From: Aequorivita sp. CIP111184
GTDB taxonomy: Bacteria; Bacteroidota; Bacteroidia; Flavobacteriales; Flavobacteriaceae
Reading direction: 5' to 3'
Assembly (NCBI RefSeq): GCF_900489465.1
Contig: NZ_UEFQ01000013.1
Span: 372,001-436,000, forward strand
Length of the DNA stretch: 64,000 nucleotides
The notes beneath the pieces are model-generated. The model was not told the DNA's origin and made no database searches. It was given only the letters and a program-made list of their open reading frames with translations. The translations under genes were made by a program, and so were the position numbers. Positions within the stretch are counted from its first letter, which is position 1. Every line of letters starts with the position of its first letter. Positions 23,919 to 32,421 of the stretch are shown piece by piece.

Positions 23919-26297
23919 TTAATTTTGAGAAGTAGATTTTATTTCAATCTCCTGACGAAGTTCATTACCATCTTGATCGGTTGCAGTTAAAATATATTTC
24001 CCAGGTTTGGGCGAAACAGCCAACTCGTGAAAGGTTTCGGTTTTACCTATATACTTAGAATCTAAATACCAAAAAACTGTAATTTCTGGAGATCGATGAG
24101 CGAGTTTAAAAATAACTTCATTCACATTTTCATCAAAATTTTTCGGAAGTAAAACGGCCTCATTTTTCTTCGGATAAATAAAAGCCATCAGCTTTTCACC
24201 TTCCTGTAAACAATTTGGGGCGAAGGGTGGAAGTACTTTATATTCTGGATGAAGTTGTGCATAATAATATTCCATAACAGGTGGTAAGGCAAACCAGTTC
24301 TTTTGAACCATTTCTAAAAGCGGGTAACAGGAAGAATTAACGCGAAAATTTTCAGTCCCGACACTTCGGGATAAAAACACAGTTTGGTGGTACGGACAAG
24401 CTTCTGTCCTAATTCCATTTTTTGGAATCCATTCCATTTTAGTTTCCTCACAGAAAAGTCCTGCAAGATGCCCACTTTTCGTGCAAATTTCGGCCTCCAC
24501 TAATTCATCATACGGAATTTTGAACCAACCGCTTTGCGGCAAAACATTTAAAACATTGAACAAAACAGGCGCCGCAGCTTGAATACCCGTCAATCCCGGC
24601 CGACCTTCACCATCGGCATTTCCAACCCAAACCCCGATGGCATATTTTGGCGTAACGCCAACTGCCCACGCATCTTTAAAACCATAACTCGTTCCTGTTT
24701 TCCAAGCAAGCGGCTGGCTGCTTGTGAAAAATTCCCAGTTTTCCTCTCCGCTTGGTCGATTCACTTTTTCCATCGCTTCAAAAGCTTCGTAAATTGCTCC
24801 CGCATTCCAAACGGAAGGTTTTTGCTGAATTTTTCCGAAATCAATTCCTTCGTGTTCTTTCACATACACAGGTTCCATAAATTCATTCTTTCGGTATTCG
24901 CTGGAAGAAGTGTTGAAGAAATTCAAGGTTGAAGCCATTCCAGCATACGCTTTGGTAATATCCCAAAGACTGCTTTCCGCACCTCCGAGAATCAGAGAAA
25001 GTCCATAATAATCTGCAGGTTTATCAATCGCTTTTTGATTCGTTTTTTTAAGAATATTATAGAATCTTTGGAACCCAAAATCACGCAACATCCGCACCGC
25101 AGGAATATTTAGCGAACGCGAAAGCGCTACGCTTGCAGGAACCGCACCGTTGAATTTTTTGTCGAAATTTTCTGGAGTGTAGCCATTCACAGAAGTTGGA
25201 ATATCTGCTACCAAAGTATTCGGAAGAATTTCCCCAGCATCCAACATAGACGTAAAAAGAAATGGTTTCAAAATACTACCCGTGCTTCTAGGTTTTTCTA
25301 TTATATCTACAAAATTATTGTGCTCGCGAGTTGTGGGGGAATTACCTACATACGCCAAAACTTCGCGCGTATTTACATCCAAAACCAAAACGGCGAGATT
25401 GTGAATCTGATTTTGAGCCAACATATAGTTTTGCTCTTTAACAATATTGTTCACCTTTTGCTGAAGTGAAAAATCAATTGTTGTTTCAATACGCTTTCCC
25501 AAATGTTCCTTTCGTATTTTTTCAGTTAAATGTGAAGCGTATTCCGGCAACGGTAAAGGTTTTCCTGGCAATTTTTCATCCAAAGCCAATTGATACGTAG
25601 TTTCATCAATCACTTCATTTCTGAAAAGTTTCAACAATAAAGCATCTCTTTTTTTCTTTAAAATTTCCTCGTTCTTCCCGGGAAAAATAAGCGACGGTGC
25701 ATTCGGAAGAACTGCCAATGCCGCCGATTGTCCCCAACTCAATTCACTCGCAGGAATTCCGAAATAACGCCACGAAGCAGTTTCAAGCCCAACCACATTT
25801 CCACCGAAAGGTGCGTATGAAGCATATAAATTCAGAATTGATTTCTTTTTATAACCCGCTTCCAAACGTGTGGCCTGAAAAATTTCAATCAGTTTTTCAA
25901 AATATGTCCGCCCTTTGTTTTTTCGGGAAAGACGAATTACTTGTTGCGTAATCGTACTTCCACCGCGGCGGGAATCGCGTGTGAGATTATTCCAAAGTGC
26001 TTTAGAAATTGAAACTGGATTGAAACCGGGATGCCAATAAAAATGTTCGTCCTCAAAATAAAGAATGCATTTTTCAAACCTTTTTGGCACAGAATCCATT
26101 TGCGGAAATCGCCATTGGCCATCATCGGCAATCCGTGCGCCGAGCATTTGTCCGTTGTTGCTTTCGGCAACAGTTGCGGTGGGAACATCAAATAGTGGCG
26201 AAGGAAGGCAAAAGAGCCAAACAAAAAATAAAATCAGCAAGATACCGAGTTTTATTTTGTGTTTTAGAATGTGCTTTTTAAAACTTGTTATTTCCAA
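23919..26297 (-). CDS. pbpC: Penicillin-binding protein 1C
   Basis: A 792-residue bifunctional peptidoglycan synthase anchored by one N-terminal membrane segment (residues about 17-32). The glycosyltransferase domain has YFEDEHFYWHPGF and RRGGSTITQQVIRL. The transpeptidase domain has the Ser-x-x-Lys site in STGSILKPF, SRSLN as SxN motif, and KTGTS. A C-terminal PBP-C domain fills the last 100 residues. As in E. coli, it is near an alpha-2-macroglobulin gene. An in-frame REP-like palindrome (24356-24371) encodes part of LSRSVGTE near residue 645. Confidence 0.94.
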   Translation of the reverse strand: MEITSFKKHILKHKIKLGILLILFFVWLFCLPSPLFDVPTATVAESNNGQMLGARIADDGQWRFPQMDSVPKRFEKCILYFEDEHFYWHPGFNPVSISKALWNNLTRDSRRGGSTITQQVIRLSRKNKGRTYFEKLIEIFQATRLEAGYKKKSILNLYASYAPFGGNVVGLETASWRYFGIPASELSWGQSAALAVLPNAPSLIFPGKNEEILKKKRDALLLKLFRNEVIDETTYQLALDEKLPGKPLPLPEYASHLTEKIRKEHLGKRIETTIDFSLQQKVNNIVKEQNYMLAQNQIHNLAVLVLDVNTREVLAYVGNSPTTREHNNFVDIIEKPRSTGSILKPFLFTSMLDAGEILPNTLVADIPTSVNGYTPENFDKKFNGAVPASVALSRSLNIPAVRMLRDFGFQRFYNILKKTNQKAIDKPADYYGLSLILGGAESSLWDITKAYAGMASTLNFFNTSSSEYRKNEFMEPVYVKEHEGIDFGKIQQKPSVWNAGAIYEAFEAMEKVNRPSGEENWEFFTSSQPLAWKTGTSYGFKDAWAVGVTPKYAIGVWVGNADGEGRPGLTGIQAAAPVLFNVLNVLPQSGWFKIPYDELVEAEICTKSGHLAGLFCEETKMEWIPKNGIRTEACPYHQTVFLSRSVGTENFRVNSSCYPLLEMVQKNWFALPPVMEYYYAQLHPEYKVLPPFAPNCLQEGEKLMAFIYPKKNEAVLLPKNFDENVNEVIFKLAHRSPEITVFWYLDSKYIGKTETFHELAVSPKPGKYILTATDQDGNELRQEIEIKSTSQN
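24356..24371. repeat. REP-like palindrome inside pbpC
   Basis: TCCCGA-CACT-TCGGGA hairpin within the coding sequence, read in frame as part of LSRSVGTE. It resembles intergenic REP cores of this genome. Confidence 0.4.
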
Positions 26298-26328
26298 TTA
26301 ATTCCTAAAATCTATTATGAATACGAAT

Positions 26329-26385
26329 GTCAGTCTGAGCTTGTCGAAGACCCTCTACGCTGAGCTTCGACAAGCGCAGCGTGAC
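26329..26385. repeat. REP-like inverted repeat pair
   Basis: Arms 26329-26349 and 26365-26385 share the core GCTTGTCGAAG in opposite orientation (GTCA..CTG.GCTTGTCGAAG). Located between pbpC and the GIY-YIG gene. Confidence 0.65.
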
Positions 26386-26418
26386 AAACATTGTTTAATT
26401 ATTAATAATAATTCCAAA

Positions 26419-26442
26419 AGTCACTCTGAACTTGTCGAAGAC
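26419..26442. repeat. REP-like repeat overlapping the 3' end of the GIY-YIG gene
   Basis: This copy reads GTCACTCTGAACTTGTCGAAG on the plus strand. It supplies the stop codon and last residues (SSTSSE) of the GIY-YIG protein, and it is inverted relative to the copy at 26784-26804, which it matches at 18 of 21 positions. Confidence 0.65.
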
Positions 26443-26756
26443 GGTTTACTTAAATCGGGACGTCCATATTCAGTATAATTCTTTGAAAATTTCACCAAAT
26501 CTTGCCAATTCTCTTCAATCAATGCCATCTTTTTTCTTCGAGACCAACCCTTAATTTGTTTTTCAATCTTTATTGCTTCCGTTGGATTTGTGCATTGTAA
26601 ATACCATTTTAACTCAACAGGCCTTCTTTTAAAGGTGTAGCAATCTTTCTTCATTCCTTCATTGTGCTGTACAAGCCTTCGCTCCATATCATTGGTCATT
26701 CCTGTATAATACGATTTATCTGAACATTCAAGAATATATGTAAAGTAAAATCTCAT
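26421..26756 (-). CDS. GIY-YIG nuclease family protein
   Basis: A 111-residue single-domain protein of the GIY-YIG endonuclease superfamily (YhbQ/UvrC N-terminal type). The two half-motifs are FTYILEC and YYTGMTND, followed by the conserved Arg of MERRLVQHN and the Glu of TNPTEAIKIEKQIKGWSRRKK. It is plausibly a structure-specific DNA nuclease; cellular role unknown. Its C-terminal tail (SKPSSTSSE) is encoded by a REP-like repeat, and a matching inverted repeat lies 28 bases before the start codon. It separates pbpC from the alpha-2-macroglobulin gene. Confidence 0.85.
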   Translation of the reverse strand: MRFYFTYILECSDKSYYTGMTNDMERRLVQHNEGMKKDCYTFKRRPVELKWYLQCTNPTEAIKIEKQIKGWSRRKKMALIEENWQDLVKFSKNYTEYGRPDLSKPSSTSSE

Positions 26757-26783
26757 CTTTCCAAATTATCTCATCATCCAGTG

Positions 26784-26804
26784 CTTCGACAAGCTCAGCA
26801 TGAC
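26784..26804. repeat. REP-like repeat upstream of the GIY-YIG gene
   Basis: CTTCGACAAGCTCAGCATGAC, in inverted orientation relative to 26419-26442, so that the nuclease gene is bracketed by inverted copies 21 bases long. Confidence 0.65.
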
Positions 26805-26835
26805 ATAATCATTTATAGTTGTCATTTGGAATAAA

Positions 26836-29800
26836 TCATAACTCAACAGTCACCCACATTCCCTTATTCCTCGCATAATATGTATTATCATACATCGCTT
26901 CCACCTGAGTTCCCGGTAAATAATAAGTTCCCAAATAAGAAGCATTTAGTTTCACGGTGAAAGTTTTCGTTTCATTTCTATTCAAATCAAAGAAAAAATT
27001 CACCCTATCATCGCGAATATCTGTATATCGCGCATTTCCGCTTGCTCCTCCTCCTAATTCACTAAAACTGGTATTTACAATTTCCCAACCGCTTGGGAAG
27101 ATTTTCGCTAAAGCAACATTGTTTACCAAATCTCCGGAAGTATTTGTAACGCTCACTTTTGCAATGATTTCCGTTCCTTGTCGCAATTTAGTGACATCAA
27201 TTGCCTTGCCCGTACCATCCAAATATTGCGATTTTATTGAGAGATTTCGCTGCTCTGCAAGTTCTTTCCCAAGTAAAAGTTTCCCTTGTTGAGAAAGCGT
27301 AACGTAAACAACATTCCCTTTTTTATTGGTCACCGAAACGGAATTACTTCCCATTACAAATGAAAGGTCACGTTGCGCAATGGCTCGGTCAGTTTTCACG
27401 GCAACCGTTTTTCCGCCGTTTGTAAATGACAGTTCCATAGCTTTTCCACCATTTTTGGCAACCATTTTCGCCATCGCCATCAAGGCATACGAAGTTTCCT
27501 GTGTGCTGTACCAATTTCCGGAAGACAAATCTTTAGCTACGGAAATCGCCAAATCACGTTGTTTTGAATCTGTCAATAAAACCAATGTTTCCAAAGCCAT
27601 CGCCCTATTTCTGAAAGGCGAACCGTAGGTGTAATAATCGTATTTCTGAGAAACAAAATTGATATTAGCGGTTTTTGCAATTTGTTGTGCGACTTCTTTT
27701 TTACCAGCCAAAGCATAAGCAGCTGCCAAACGCCATTTGGCATCGTTGCTCAATTCCTTGCTTTCACGAAGACGGTTCATTGCGGCAAGTTCAGGTTTTC
27801 CTGCTAAGGCTAAAGTGTAAAGTCGGTATGCCTGCGTCAAACTTGTATTATAAACCTTATAACTATTTCGCCACTGCCGCGCAGTGTTTTGTTGATATAA
27901 TAACCAATTGCTCATAAAACTGATTGGAAGCGCATAGCCTTTTTGCTTCGCCTCAAGCATAAAATGGCCGGCATAATTGGTCGCCCATTCATCAGCTTCA
28001 CGTTCGCCAGGCCAGTAAGCAAGCCCGCCGTTTGCGGTTTGGAATCTTCCCAAACGTTCAATTGCAGCTTTTACATTTTTCTCAATTTTCTGTTTTTTGT
28101 CGAAAGTAACGTCGAAAACATCTGCCAAATACAACTGCGGAAATGCCGAAGAAGTTGTTTGCTCAACACATCCGTAGGGATAATGGATTAGATATTCCAT
28201 TCGCTTTCCAAAATCCATCGGAGGCAAGGTTGAAAATTCGAGCATCGCAGAATTGCTTCCAGGAACGCCAAATGTTTCAAAATTGATAGTTTGCAAGCCA
28301 TTTTCGGCAATGGTGTACTGTGTAGATTTTTGAGAAATCGGGTTCGGATTTTCCACGTCAATTTCCACTTTGTAACTCGCCTTTTCGCCGTTGCCCGAAG
28401 CCATTACTTCAATAGTTTGAAATTCCTTAGTTGGCAAAACTTCAAATTCGAAATTCACAATCTGTTCTCCCGGTTCGTCGAAAGTAACCGTTTTTGACGA
28501 ACCATATTTAGGTTTCAGCGCATCACCAGTTTTCACTGTAATCGTGGCGGTTTTCACTTTATTTTCCATTGCGAAAACGGTGACGGGAAGTGTAACAGTT
28601 TCGCCTGGCGATAATTTCCGCGGAAGTGAAGCCAGCACCATTAAAGGCGTACGGACAGGTGTAGTTTTATCAACACTGCCGTAAGCGCTTTTCGTTTTAT
28701 CGCCCGCAATCACCATTGTGCGCACTGAACCAATATAATTTGGCATCATAATATTATGAGTTGCCGTTTTTCCAGCAGCCAATTCAAATGGTCCAAGGTA
28801 TTTCACAACGGGTTTAAATCGGTCGGCTTTTCTATTTTTCGCTCCCAAAGCCGCATCGCCACCACCGATTGCATAAATGTTATCGACACTTCCCGAGTAC
28901 GCGCCAATCACATAATCGAACATATCAAAAGTTTTTACTCCCAAAGCTTCGCGACTGTAAAAGGCTTCGTGGATATCTGGCGTTGCGAAACGCGTTAAAT
29001 CCAGCAAACCTTCATCAACAACCGCAATGGTGTATGTCATCGGTTTGTTGTTTTCTTCGGAAATTTTTACAGTGAATGGTTTTTCTGGTTTTAATACTTC
29101 CGGCATCGTGATTTTTGGGTGAAGCACCGTTGAAGGATCTTCCACCAAAAGCGGAATAACACCGTAAAGTCGTATTGGCAAATCATTTTTGGTCTGGCTA
29201 TGCGGTTGAAGTAGCGAAATATTCACATAAATATTCGGTGCCATTTCCTTCGTAATTTTTATTGCAGCTTTAGTTTCGCCTTTTTTGGTTTCAATCCAAT
29301 GCGTTGCCAAAACTTCGGTTCCGTTTTCAACACTAATTAGTGCGTGACCATCACTTCCCGAAGGAAATGTTATAAAAGCTTCTTCGCCTACATTATATTT
29401 TTCTTTATCTGCTGAAAATAACAACATGCGTGCGCTATCACTATCGCCGTCACTTGGGCGTTGCGACCAATTTCTGTAGAAATAAGTGATACGTCCAGTT
29501 GCATGTCCGGATTGTTTATCGATTACGCGAATTAAATAACGTCCGCCTTCTTCTTCGGGAATATTTATCGTGAATTTTCCTTTTCCGCTACCATCAGTTT
29601 TTACGGTGAAATCTTTTACGGGACGGTGAACGGTTGAATTTTCATAGGTTGAAAGATTGTCCGAACCGCGGTTCCACCACCAGCGCCATTCAATTTGAAA
29701 AACTTTTACTTCCAGCTCGCGATTGGCGGCAGCTTTGCCTTGGGCATCTACGGAAACTACATCAAACGTTGTGTTTTCATCCGTGAAGTAAGAACCGTAA

Positions 29801-32421
29801 CGACCCGCTTCGGGAGATTTTAAACCGACAAAATGTGAAAACGGCGCCAAGTCCTTTGAAAAAATATCCATAGAAAAATCACCACCGCCTTCGTACACTT
29901 TCGTCAAAAATGTAGCTTTTAACATTCCGGGTGCATTCTTTCCAACTTCTAGATTTTGGCTAAAAGCAGTGCTCCCTTCAGAAGAAAGTTGCGTGTCCAA
30001 AACAGGGATTTCCACTTCGGAAAAAGTTCGGATTGGATCGATAAAATTGTATTTTGGAAATTTCGGAAATGCAGAATTGCTGGCGCGAAGTGTAGCCGTC
30101 ATATCAATTTTTAAGCTTCTTGCTGGTGAACCGTGAAGCCACATTGCGCTCGCTATTCCTTTTACAGGTTGTGTAGCGTCGAGAATTTCATCTTCAAAAT
30201 CGAGTTTGATTTTTAATCGGTTTGGTTTAATAGTTGCAACTTTTAAAGTGTGGCTGAACTGTGCGCCACCCAAGGATATTGTGGTATTCCAATTGCCCGT
30301 TGGCGCAGAAGTGTCAGTTGCGATTGGGAAATAATAAAACCCATCTTTTGAAATATTTGTTTGCTGGACAGTGCGATGAACTAGTTTCCCTCGGGCATCC
30401 GTTACAGAAAGCGTTATTGGATGATTTTTTGGAAGTGGATTCCCGTTATCATTCAAAACAAAAGTTAAGTGAATACTGTCCCCAGGACGATAAACACCTC
30501 GTTCGGTGTAGGTATAACCTTTTAATCCTTTTTGAAGTTCTTTCCCCGAAATGTCAAAATTGCTCATTGAAAGAGCGTTTCCGTCTTCCAGTTTTACGTA
30601 AGCGAAATTGTTTCCTTTTTGAGCCACCGCGAAAGCCGCATTTTTGGTGCCATCGTAAAGCGTCATTCCATCACTTTCAGTGGTTACGGTTTCAATAAGT
30701 TGCTGCTGATAATTGAAAAGTTTGACTTTTACACCACCTTCAGGTTTCGCTGAAATTAAGTTTGTAGCGAAAAAATGATAGGAACGGTTGTTGCCTTTTT
30801 TTACAATCAAGCCCAAATCCGATCCCAAAATATTTGCTGTAACTACGCGCTCTTCGTTGTAAAATGCGGGATGGCAAGGATTGTCCTGCTGTTCCCAATT
30901 ATAGGTGTAATTTCTCCAGCGGTAAATTTCATTGTCCCAGTAGCGCTCTTCACGAAGTTCTTCATCTTCGGATGAATCATTGGCATAATAGGAATCTTCT
31001 TCGTAATAATCGTCATAATATTCTTCGCCTTCTTCATTGCTTCCTTCTGTTACTTCAGAAGAAGTTTCGGCACAATCATAGGTTATATACTCTTTTTTAA
31101 AGCTGAGTTCCAACTGATAAATGGCGCCGGGATCTGCTTTAAAATATTCCGAAAGATTTATGGCATAAGCTTTCCAGCTTCCATTATTTCCTAAATCGTC
31201 GTTTTTAAGGTCAATCGTTTTTTTTGCAATTCTTCGTCCAACTCGTTTAATATCGTATGTGTTGTTATCATTCAAATTATAACTTTGAAGAAATTGAAGG
31301 ACGTTGTTTTCATAGATTTTAATGACGCGAACATCTACTTTTGCAAGGTTTACAGCTTCAAAGTAAACCGGCGTTAAAGCGGAATTCGGAAGAATCACGC
31401 CTTTTGAAATCATCCGTACGGCGGGTTTTAACTGTTCAAAGGAAACTAATTCTGAAAACTCCTTCTTCAAACCAAAGCCTTCGGTATTTTTGATGCCGGT
31501 AAAAACGGTGACTTTTACATCGCCAACCACGCGGTTTGGCGGATAGACGTTAAGTACATTTCCGTTGACTTCGTAACGCAAATCCTGTGTATTCTCGATA
31601 GTCACCAAACCAGCAAAATCCTGATTTTCTAGTAACGGATCTGAAAAGTTTATGCTCAAAAGTGCCGCGGGCGCCAATGTGCTACTAATGTCAACAATTG
31701 TAAAATTATTTTGTCCAGGAATTGCGAAGGTGTTTTCGCCTTTATTTTCAGCGCCAATTTCCTTTCCATCCCATTTAATCAGAATTTCGGAATCTTCCTT
31801 TTTTCGGCTTATGCTGTCAATGGTAAAGTTGAAGTAGCGCGCTTCAGTTGCTTCCGAAGGCCATTTTAATTTTAGGTTTTTGCCATCTTGGGAAGCAGAA
31901 ACCAATTGCTTCGCTTTTTCCAAAGAAATAACATCGGAGGCTTCAATAAGCGCTTCCACATATTGCCACTGCTTGCTGTAGCTTTGAAGTTTGCCAATAT
32001 CTACTTTAAAATTTGGCGTAATTGTGTGAAAACTGAAAGTGTAGGTTTTAAATTCTTTTGAAATGTCTTCATATAACTTATCTAAATTTACAGTAACAGT
32101 ATATTCTGTATCTGGTATTAAATATTCGGCAGGTTGGAAGATTAGAGTTTTGCCATTTTCTACAACCAATTTTCCTTTTGTGGAAGGAGAAATTTTTAAA
32201 TATTCATCGGCTGAAAGTTCTTGTGTCAGCTCAAATTGATCCAAAGGTTTTGCAAGTTCAACGCGAATATCTGTTGTGGTTGAGAGATTGCCGTAGGTAT
32301 TGTACGAAATGTATTCCTTGAATTTAAAGAGATTGTCGGTTTCGGAATATTTGTCTTTGTCATTGCAGGAAAAGACAAACAATACAATAAAAAGGACGAA
32401 TAGACCACGGAAAATTTTCAT
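26836..32421 (-). CDS. Bacterial alpha-2-macroglobulin (YfhM-type) lipoprotein
   Basis: A very large (1861-residue) periplasmic lipoprotein: lipobox VFSC (Cys19), then an N-terminal Ig-like domain and a string of macroglobulin domains. YTERGVYRPGDSIHLTFVLND (near residue 640) and the terpenoid-cyclase-like helical domain (residues about 1390-1650) are recognisable. The thioester motif is intact: YPYGCVEQTTSS, Cys near residue 1418. Such proteins trap invading proteases and are thought to work with PBP1C in envelope defence. An acidic, tyrosine-rich insertion (EEGEEYYDDYYEEDSYY, near residue 470) is unusual. Its start is supported by a TAnnTTTG box at 32485-32492. Confidence 0.93.
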   Translation of the reverse strand: MKIFRGLFVLFIVLFVFSCNDKDKYSETDNLFKFKEYISYNTYGNLSTTTDIRVELAKPLDQFELTQELSADEYLKISPSTKGKLVVENGKTLIFQPAEYLIPDTEYTVTVNLDKLYEDISKEFKTYTFSFHTITPNFKVDIGKLQSYSKQWQYVEALIEASDVISLEKAKQLVSASQDGKNLKLKWPSEATEARYFNFTIDSISRKKEDSEILIKWDGKEIGAENKGENTFAIPGQNNFTIVDISSTLAPAALLSINFSDPLLENQDFAGLVTIENTQDLRYEVNGNVLNVYPPNRVVGDVKVTVFTGIKNTEGFGLKKEFSELVSFEQLKPAVRMISKGVILPNSALTPVYFEAVNLAKVDVRVIKIYENNVLQFLQSYNLNDNNTYDIKRVGRRIAKKTIDLKNDDLGNNGSWKAYAINLSEYFKADPGAIYQLELSFKKEYITYDCAETSSEVTEGSNEEGEEYYDDYYEEDSYYANDSSEDEELREERYWDNEIYRWRNYTYNWEQQDNPCHPAFYNEERVVTANILGSDLGLIVKKGNNRSYHFFATNLISAKPEGGVKVKLFNYQQQLIETVTTESDGMTLYDGTKNAAFAVAQKGNNFAYVKLEDGNALSMSNFDISGKELQKGLKGYTYTERGVYRPGDSIHLTFVLNDNGNPLPKNHPITLSVTDARGKLVHRTVQQTNISKDGFYYFPIATDTSAPTGNWNTTISLGGAQFSHTLKVATIKPNRLKIKLDFEDEILDATQPVKGIASAMWLHGSPARSLKIDMTATLRASNSAFPKFPKYNFIDPIRTFSEVEIPVLDTQLSSEGSTAFSQNLEVGKNAPGMLKATFLTKVYEGGGDFSMDIFSKDLAPFSHFVGLKSPEAGRYGSYFTDENTTFDVVSVDAQGKAAANRELEVKVFQIEWRWWWNRGSDNLSTYENSTVHRPVKDFTVKTDGSGKGKFTINIPEEEGGRYLIRVIDKQSGHATGRITYFYRNWSQRPSDGDSDSARMLLFSADKEKYNVGEEAFITFPSGSDGHALISVENGTEVLATHWIETKKGETKAAIKITKEMAPNIYVNISLLQPHSQTKNDLPIRLYGVIPLLVEDPSTVLHPKITMPEVLKPEKPFTVKISEENNKPMTYTIAVVDEGLLDLTRFATPDIHEAFYSREALGVKTFDMFDYVIGAYSGSVDNIYAIGGGDAALGAKNRKADRFKPVVKYLGPFELAAGKTATHNIMMPNYIGSVRTMVIAGDKTKSAYGSVDKTTPVRTPLMVLASLPRKLSPGETVTLPVTVFAMENKVKTATITVKTGDALKPKYGSSKTVTFDEPGEQIVNFEFEVLPTKEFQTIEVMASGNGEKASYKVEIDVENPNPISQKSTQYTIAENGLQTINFETFGVPGSNSAMLEFSTLPPMDFGKRMEYLIHYPYGCVEQTTSSAFPQLYLADVFDVTFDKKQKIEKNVKAAIERLGRFQTANGGLAYWPGEREADEWATNYAGHFMLEAKQKGYALPISFMSNWLLYQQNTARQWRNSYKVYNTSLTQAYRLYTLALAGKPELAAMNRLRESKELSNDAKWRLAAAYALAGKKEVAQQIAKTANINFVSQKYDYYTYGSPFRNRAMALETLVLLTDSKQRDLAISVAKDLSSGNWYSTQETSYALMAMAKMVAKNGGKAMELSFTNGGKTVAVKTDRAIAQRDLSFVMGSNSVSVTNKKGNVVYVTLSQQGKLLLGKELAEQRNLSIKSQYLDGTGKAIDVTKLRQGTEIIAKVSVTNTSGDLVNNVALAKIFPSGWEIVNTSFSELGGGASGNARYTDIRDDRVNFFFDLNRNETKTFTVKLNASYLGTYYLPGTQVEAMYDNTYYARNKGMWVTVEL

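Follow-up and report, generated by a model that had tools for sequence, protein, structure and literature searches.

A 2025 paper in Nature Communications reportedly describes Ssn, GIY-YIG enzymes that act as site-specific single-strand nucleases, have cognate repeats in the genome (NTS in Neisseria), and count thousands of homologs. In Neisseria, Ssn is said to limit or shape DNA uptake and recombination through these repeats. The system reported here has, like Ssn as so described, a GIY-YIG enzyme and cognate genomic repeats; if that description holds, it would be a Bacteroidota member of the Ssn kind, and the kind of enzyme would already be known. What our study would then add is a gene lying in the loop of a repeat dimer, two loop states at one site, cognate repeat classes in Bacteroidota, and a tie to the CGTC-tagged REPs. 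To our knowledge, the Ssn work describes neither loop exchange nor a gene enclosed by two head-to-head repeats.

Two kinds of REP system bear on the locus, both as described in Di Nocera et al. 2013 (PMC3733652). In the REPtron, GTAG-tagged REPs go together with a Y1 transposase (RAYT). The same paper defines CGTC-tagged REPs, which occur in Bacteroidetes and mostly alpha-proteobacteria and apparently lack a dedicated transposase. Members of this class have a stem of 8 to 9 bp, the first two positions of which are A-T/T-A pairs, and a loop of 4 to 5 nt, and head-to-head dimers predominate among them. A search of titles and abstract openings, with subscription papers mostly outside its reach, found no literature linking GIY-YIG enzymes with REPs.

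The repeats of our locus share with the CGTC REPs of that account the CGTC/TGTC tag beside a hairpin (GTC being the best of 64 tags), a stem of about 8 positions, a short loop (4 to 5 nt there, 5 to 6 nt here), and the dimer arrangement. In contrast to the published ones, for which no associated transposase is reported (PMC3733652), a GIY-YIG gene lies within the dimer here, and in our GAG..CGA type, the first stem position is unpaired. Judged from their sequences, the repeats thus fit the CGTC class in tag, size, and host range, and less well in the first stem pair. With the REPtron, as far as it is described there, the locus shares a small nuclease gene flanked by inverted REPs, together with dispersed gene-less REPs in the genome; the enzyme family differs, and so does the tag, GTAG being absent here (TGTC/AGTC in the window, GTC across the set). 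PF01541 was the only domain found in the window protein, with no match to a Y1 (HUH) tyrosine transposase. The first-pass annotation had called the locus comparable in logic to RAYT, which is fair as an analogy and not as membership. If the partnership proposed here is true, REP-nuclease pairs arose with two unrelated enzyme families.

The A2M-pbpC locus, its nuclease, and its REPs

The window, i.e., the whole 64-kb stretch of DNA that was analyzed, covers 372001-436000 of contig C35 in a genome of 3.54 Mb. The gap of interest (~540 bp) separates two genes on the minus strand, which the first-pass annotation had named pbpC and alpha-2-macroglobulin. The first name is borne out by TIGR02073 for the downstream neighbor in reading direction (23919..26297, minus strand); the second, A2M hereafter, remains the annotator's own for the upstream neighbor, an 1861-aa ORF (26836..32421, minus strand) without a match in the NCBIfam search.

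Read in the direction of transcription, the order is REP(+), GIY-YIG gene, REP(-), REP(+), 15 nt, REP(-). The four REP copies, tagged TGTC/AGTC, therefore form two tandem head-to-head dimers with tags outward, and the loop of dimer 1 is the GIY-YIG gene (26421..26756, minus strand). The upstream arm of this dimer, copy A (26782..26805, minus strand; TGTCATGCTGAGCTTGTCGAAG), has an intact core. Its downstream arm, copy B (26419..26443, plus strand), has a degenerate core and encodes the end of the nuclease; the earlier remark that this copy codes for the last residues proved true, with the stop codon included. Over 21 nt, the inverted arms at 26420-26440 and 26784-26804 are 86% complementary, in keeping with the 18/21 matches counted before. 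The second inverted pair, previously placed at 26329-26385, is also present (26328-26349/26365-26386) and corresponds to dimer 2, in which copy C (26361..26386, minus strand; degenerate core) and copy D (26328..26352, plus strand; intact core) have 15 nt between their arms. Cores are thus degenerate in 2 of 4 copies, those with tags at 26385 (minus) and 26420 (plus). Beyond the four at the A2M-pbpC junction, no REP copy was found in the 64-kb window.

The 10-mer CTTGTCGAAG has 4 copies in the window, all at this junction (0.08 expected; at least 4 in 0 of 100 shuffles). Genome-wide, this 10-mer shows no excess (17 copies vs. 16 of the backwards-read control), and the 15-mer core CTGAGCYTGTCGAAG occurs 21 times vs. 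0 for the control. Folded as DNA, the dimer at 26329-26386 reached -17.7 kcal/mol (z -4.35); an Rfam search of 26200-26950 gave no match. Dimer 2 (26328-26386) ends ~30 nt before the pbpC start, i.e., within the pbpC leader, and may influence pbpC expression.

The GIY-YIG identity proposed earlier for the 111-aa protein holds: PF01541 matches with E 3e-18, and the conserved residues and the structural model agree. Y7, Y17, R27, H31, and E65, which we take to be the catalytic residues, are invariant in 24 aligned relatives and nearly so throughout clade 1 of the enzyme tree described below (130/131, 134/134, 134/135, 135/135, and 134/134, respectively). The predicted structure has a mean pLDDT of 86, with low confidence from about residue 91 onward, and would consist of a GIY-YIG domain and a short helical end, in which we see no space for an extra DNA-binding domain. 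In 24 of the 73 genes having a downstream REP, the stop codon lies inside it; this, together with the low model confidence from residue ~91, indicates that the REP-coded C-terminal tail is probably read-through.

Among named relatives of the nuclease, the six best matches all come from Aequorivita (80-94% identity), which we take to be the genus of the window's genome as well. By sequence profile, the closest solved structures are UPF0213 BH0048 (1zg2, E 7e-19) and EF2693 (1ywl, E 8e-16), the only two Foldseek matches at E <= 0.001 as well; these proteins, nearest both by profile and by fold, bear names that state no function. Searches of the nuclease against NCBIfam, PADLOC, and PHROGs returned nothing, and tblastn against plasmids gave 20 records, all below 60% identity.

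The commonest form of the repeat reads TGTC, five stem positions, GAG, a loop (CTTGT, CCTGT, or CGCAGT), CGA, and five stem positions. Of 144 distinct repeats of the GAG..CGA type, 135 have T immediately before GTC, and 4 have C. Stem positions 2 to 5 covary with several pair types among 113 distinct motif-only REPs, being paired in 93, 98, 105, and 101 of them (shuffled means 38, 31, 84, and 75, respectively), and position 1 is unpaired. Tandem G.A pairs might form at the GAG/CGA step. Other members, TGTCATTCCCGCG... or CGTCATCCTGAAC..., show ordinary pairing, and some TGTCATTCCCGCG... repeats in the wider sample pair throughout. Single REPs folded as DNA by nearest-neighbor energies did no better than shuffles (z +0.38 to +0.65). 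REP pairs at most 150 bp apart in the loci were HT in 53, HH in 40, and TT in 57 cases, head-to-head not being the commonest. Another clade-1 gene of the window's genome, L003 (G000:C16:539550-539828, minus strand), sits among longer hairpins, TGTCAGTTCGAG...TATCGAGAAC, which have the same tag and GAG/CGA step and a long loop.

Association of the nuclease with REPs

Sixty-two of the 65 closest loci, a set biased to near relatives, had enough flank for analysis. The REP core was found upstream in (+) orientation in 51 of these, downstream in (-) orientation in 44, and on both sides in 38, with other orientations near the gene in 17 (upstream) and 25 (downstream). The corresponding counts for 199 control ORFs from the same loci were 8, 13, and 2. 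A wider set comprised 212 stand-alone GIY-YIG genes, 220 control ORFs, and 212 mismatched pairs; its phylum sample consisted of the best-scoring among the matches listed, 60 regions being taken besides the given loci. Here a motif-free inverted-repeat score of at least 18 was reached by 4/4 genes of the window's own genome, 17/22 of the genus, 49/68 of close relatives, 40/102 of the phylum sample, and 6/16 of three chosen genomes, vs. 3/220 control ORFs and 11/212 mismatched pairs.

The enzyme tree holds 194 genes (18 of the 212, outside 70-230 aa, were left out) in clade 1 (135) and clade 2 (59), with the boundary between them drawn by eye at a single tip after midpoint rooting. GTC-tagged hairpins lie upstream of 77, downstream of 73, and on both sides of 57 clade-1 genes. 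For clade 2, these counts are 6, 6, and 0. Among the 220 control ORFs they are 17, 26, and 0, with at least one side in 43; the enrichment of REPs beside GIY-YIG genes, which the first-pass annotation had proposed to test, was thus observed, two-sided REPs not being equally frequent at unrelated genes. The two-sided clade-1 cases came from close relatives (38/56), the genus (8/25), the phylum sample (10/43), and the three chosen genomes (1/11), so the association weakens with distance from the window's own subfamily; for 42 of the 135 clade-1 genes, neither flank has a hairpin of this kind in this orientation. When all 64 trinucleotide tags were compared, GTC scored 150, the next 44, and the median was 16.

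The hairpin rule behind these counts (GAG..CGA/Watson-Crick) was devised after inspecting the arms, so the data to which it was applied also shaped it; checks outside those data come from the alpha-proteobacterial set and the whole-genome counts. Two other rules were discarded. A strict 6-nt stem missed most Bacteroidota REPs (0 two-sided in 68 close relatives; controls 4 upstream and 4 downstream of 220), and a 4-nt stem discriminated only in part (controls 15 and 17 of 220). Repeats with long loops, including those beside L003, escape the final rule. With loops up to 75 nt, GAG..CGA only and any orientation, two-sided cases numbered 63/135 in clade 1, 0/59 in clade 2, and 0/220 in controls.

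The alpha-proteobacterial set, 49 loci among the matches listed (L250-L298) that yielded 45 genes, represents the class of G088, a Robiginitomaculum MAG that was itself left out. A hairpin flanked 15/35 of its clade-1 genes on either side and 5/35 on both (controls 4/34 and 0/34). The tag TCA (22) was slightly ahead of GTC (20) there, presumably the same element one base further on. By the counts for clades, controls, and tags, the link between nuclease and REPs is specific and not due to chance.

Enzyme and repeat also go together by type. On the enzyme tree (93 tips), 16 changes of loop class were counted, against a mean of 46.3 and a minimum of 40 after shuffling; by this measure, REP loop class tracks enzyme clade. 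In 28 genus genomes, with enzyme types assigned by hand and plain tests that ignore kinship, the window-type enzyme was accompanied by more CYTGT REPs (p 0.0006; 0.023 once 4 had been subtracted from each count for local copies) and the other type by more CGCAGT REPs (p 0.0018); the crossed tests were not significant (p 0.19 and 0.16). Among 120 family genomes (119 genera), the REP core was present in 28/43 with the enzyme vs. 12/77 without it (p 6e-8, ignoring kinship, with copies beside the gene included in the counts). Conversely, 15 of the 43 family genomes have the enzyme without this REP core, and REPs without a detected enzyme are found in the said 12/77 and, within the genus, in G002, G013, G014, and G018.

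The junction in related genomes and the readings it allows

A survey of the pbpC-A2M junction covered the 28 genus genomes, 25 of which had a strong pbpC match. The A2M gene end adjoins pbpC in 23 of these 25 loci. Seven junctions hold the gene and REPs, 1 holds REPs only, 7 are near-empty (24-45 nt between the aligned ends of A2M and pbpC), 8 hold other sequence, and the flanks of the remaining 2 yielded no A2M. The comparison of this junction between relatives, which had been proposed as a check, therefore shows that the gene is absent from the site in some of them; in G020, it is on another contig, and the junction is near-empty. In the near-empty state, A2M and pbpC would be close enough for co-transcription. 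Across 26 pbpC tips, the gene's presence switches 7 times, as against a mean of 7.05 with shuffled labels, and gain is not separable from loss.

The REPs-only genome, G025, has two gene-less dimers at the junction and groups with the gene-bearing G010 and G027 (support 1.000). The loop at the same junction measures 337 nt with the gene in G010 (L092) and 11 nt without it in the sister species G025 (L089). By blastn, the flanks of L092 and L089 are 88% identical over the first 67 nt and 82% identical from the downstream arm on, with the caveats that the repeat arms also match each other and that a global alignment put the left flank of L089 elsewhere than blastn did. In Cochleicola (L027), the same junction has an array of dimers, with the gene as the loop of one unit. 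Among the 65 loci, 34 fall in 10 groups with common neighbors on both sides, which implies that many copies were inherited in place, and 31 are in contexts of their own. Given these shared neighbors and the gene with REPs in Cochleicola, the unit may have occupied this junction for a long time. The earlier idea of a nuclease-linked mobile unit is supported in part, by the specific REP link (both sides 57/135 vs. 0/59 and 0/220) and by the patchiness at the junction.

Separately, L084 (G008) and L091 (G009) carry at the same A2M-pbpC junction a two-gene insert that by eye, from the letters, resembles a toxin-antitoxin pair; with such small inserts, the junction may be an insertion hotspot. In G001, a second stretch matching pbpC residues 716-792 at 79% identity (L103, G001:C11:75395-75625) lies apart from, and near, the intact pbpC of that genome.

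We lean toward the reading that the nuclease and its flanking REPs are one unit: the enzyme would recognize these REPs as its own sites, and its gene takes up the loop between two head-to-head copies. Support at the level of sequence comes from the anatomy, the specific association, the occurrence of both loop states (gene-bearing and gene-less) at one site, stem covariation, and the agreement between enzyme clade and REP loop class. We infer that the nuclease is cognate to these REPs and that together they make up a REPtron-like unit, gained and lost through exchange of loops. The enzyme would bind the REP in hairpin or single-stranded form, cutting near the TGTCA tag; repair of the break between REP copies would then let the gene enter or leave REP dimers in a homing-like manner, and the same repair would spread short gene-less dimers. 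GIY-YIG enzymes hydrolyze DNA and do not join ends, so that host recombination would do the joining. A bolder form of this proposal, which we offer tentatively and do not hold as probable, is that GIY-YIG genes in head-to-head CGTC REPs would constitute a second, independent REPtron class, self-spreading, with a hydrolytic nuclease that homes its own gene into empty dimers, and would supply the partner that CGTC REPs have lacked throughout Bacteroidota and alpha-proteobacteria.

Alternatively, the enzyme might be a single-strand nuclease serving the host and using REPs as genomic landmarks in limiting or shaping DNA uptake and recombination; REPs close to its gene would then be marks of its sites, and any mobility would be incidental. 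We regard this as unlikely: although the cognate pairing of enzyme and loop class, the near-invariant catalytic residues in clade 1, the occupied pbpC junction in seven genus genomes and Cochleicola, and the 34/65 loci in shared contexts all agree with a host function, the patchy distribution within one genus, the 31/65 loci in contexts of their own, and the gene-less dimer that a sister species has at this site suggest a selfish element more than a conserved one. Far less probable is that the REPs act at the RNA level, as terminator or stabilizing hairpins required by the small gene and unrelated to DNA cutting. A terminator requires neither tag specificity nor a match between loop class and enzyme clade, and clade-2 GIY-YIG genes and control ORFs do without two-sided copies, even if REPs do lie close to start and stop (medians of 24 nt before the start in 77 genes and 6 nt after the stop in 73). 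Least credible is a Y1 (RAYT/IS200) transposase moving REPs in trans, with the GIY-YIG gene hitchhiking in REP-rich spots: a Y1_Tnp match occurs in 19/28 genus genomes, the window's genome included (2 weak matches), yet the nine without one still have 5-87 copies of two REP cores, Y1 count is unrelated to REP count (rho 0.17, p 0.39; 28 genus genomes), and Di Nocera et al. 2013 (PMC3733652) encountered no tyrosine transposase gene with CGTC REPs on its flanks. RAYT as the REP mover was set aside.

Read as a nuclease with its own REPs, the locus suggests a candidate enzyme for a bacterial repeat class that had none assigned. The nuclease can be named genome by genome, and the REP loop class is suggested by the enzyme sequence, which makes the question of the CGTC partner testable at the bench. 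The outcome is a set of candidate sequence-specific nucleases.

A second GIY-YIG clade

Clade 2 includes a gene of the window's genome, L005 (G000:C38:225248-225463, plus strand). A tRNA was present within 300 bp upstream or 250 bp downstream of 38/59 clade-2 and 0/135 clade-1 genes. Direct repeats with a score of at least 16, often made of the tRNA 3' part and terminator (tRNA-Phe of the window's genome being an example), flank the gene in 36 of the 38 tRNA-linked clade-2 cases; elsewhere, flanking direct repeats were found in 109/135 clade-1 genes and 16/220 controls. From these sequence features, clade 2 looks like a tRNA-targeting GIY-YIG element. One locus of this clade, L209 (G080:C34:6991-9748), has eight GIY-YIG genes in tandem at ~364-bp spacing.
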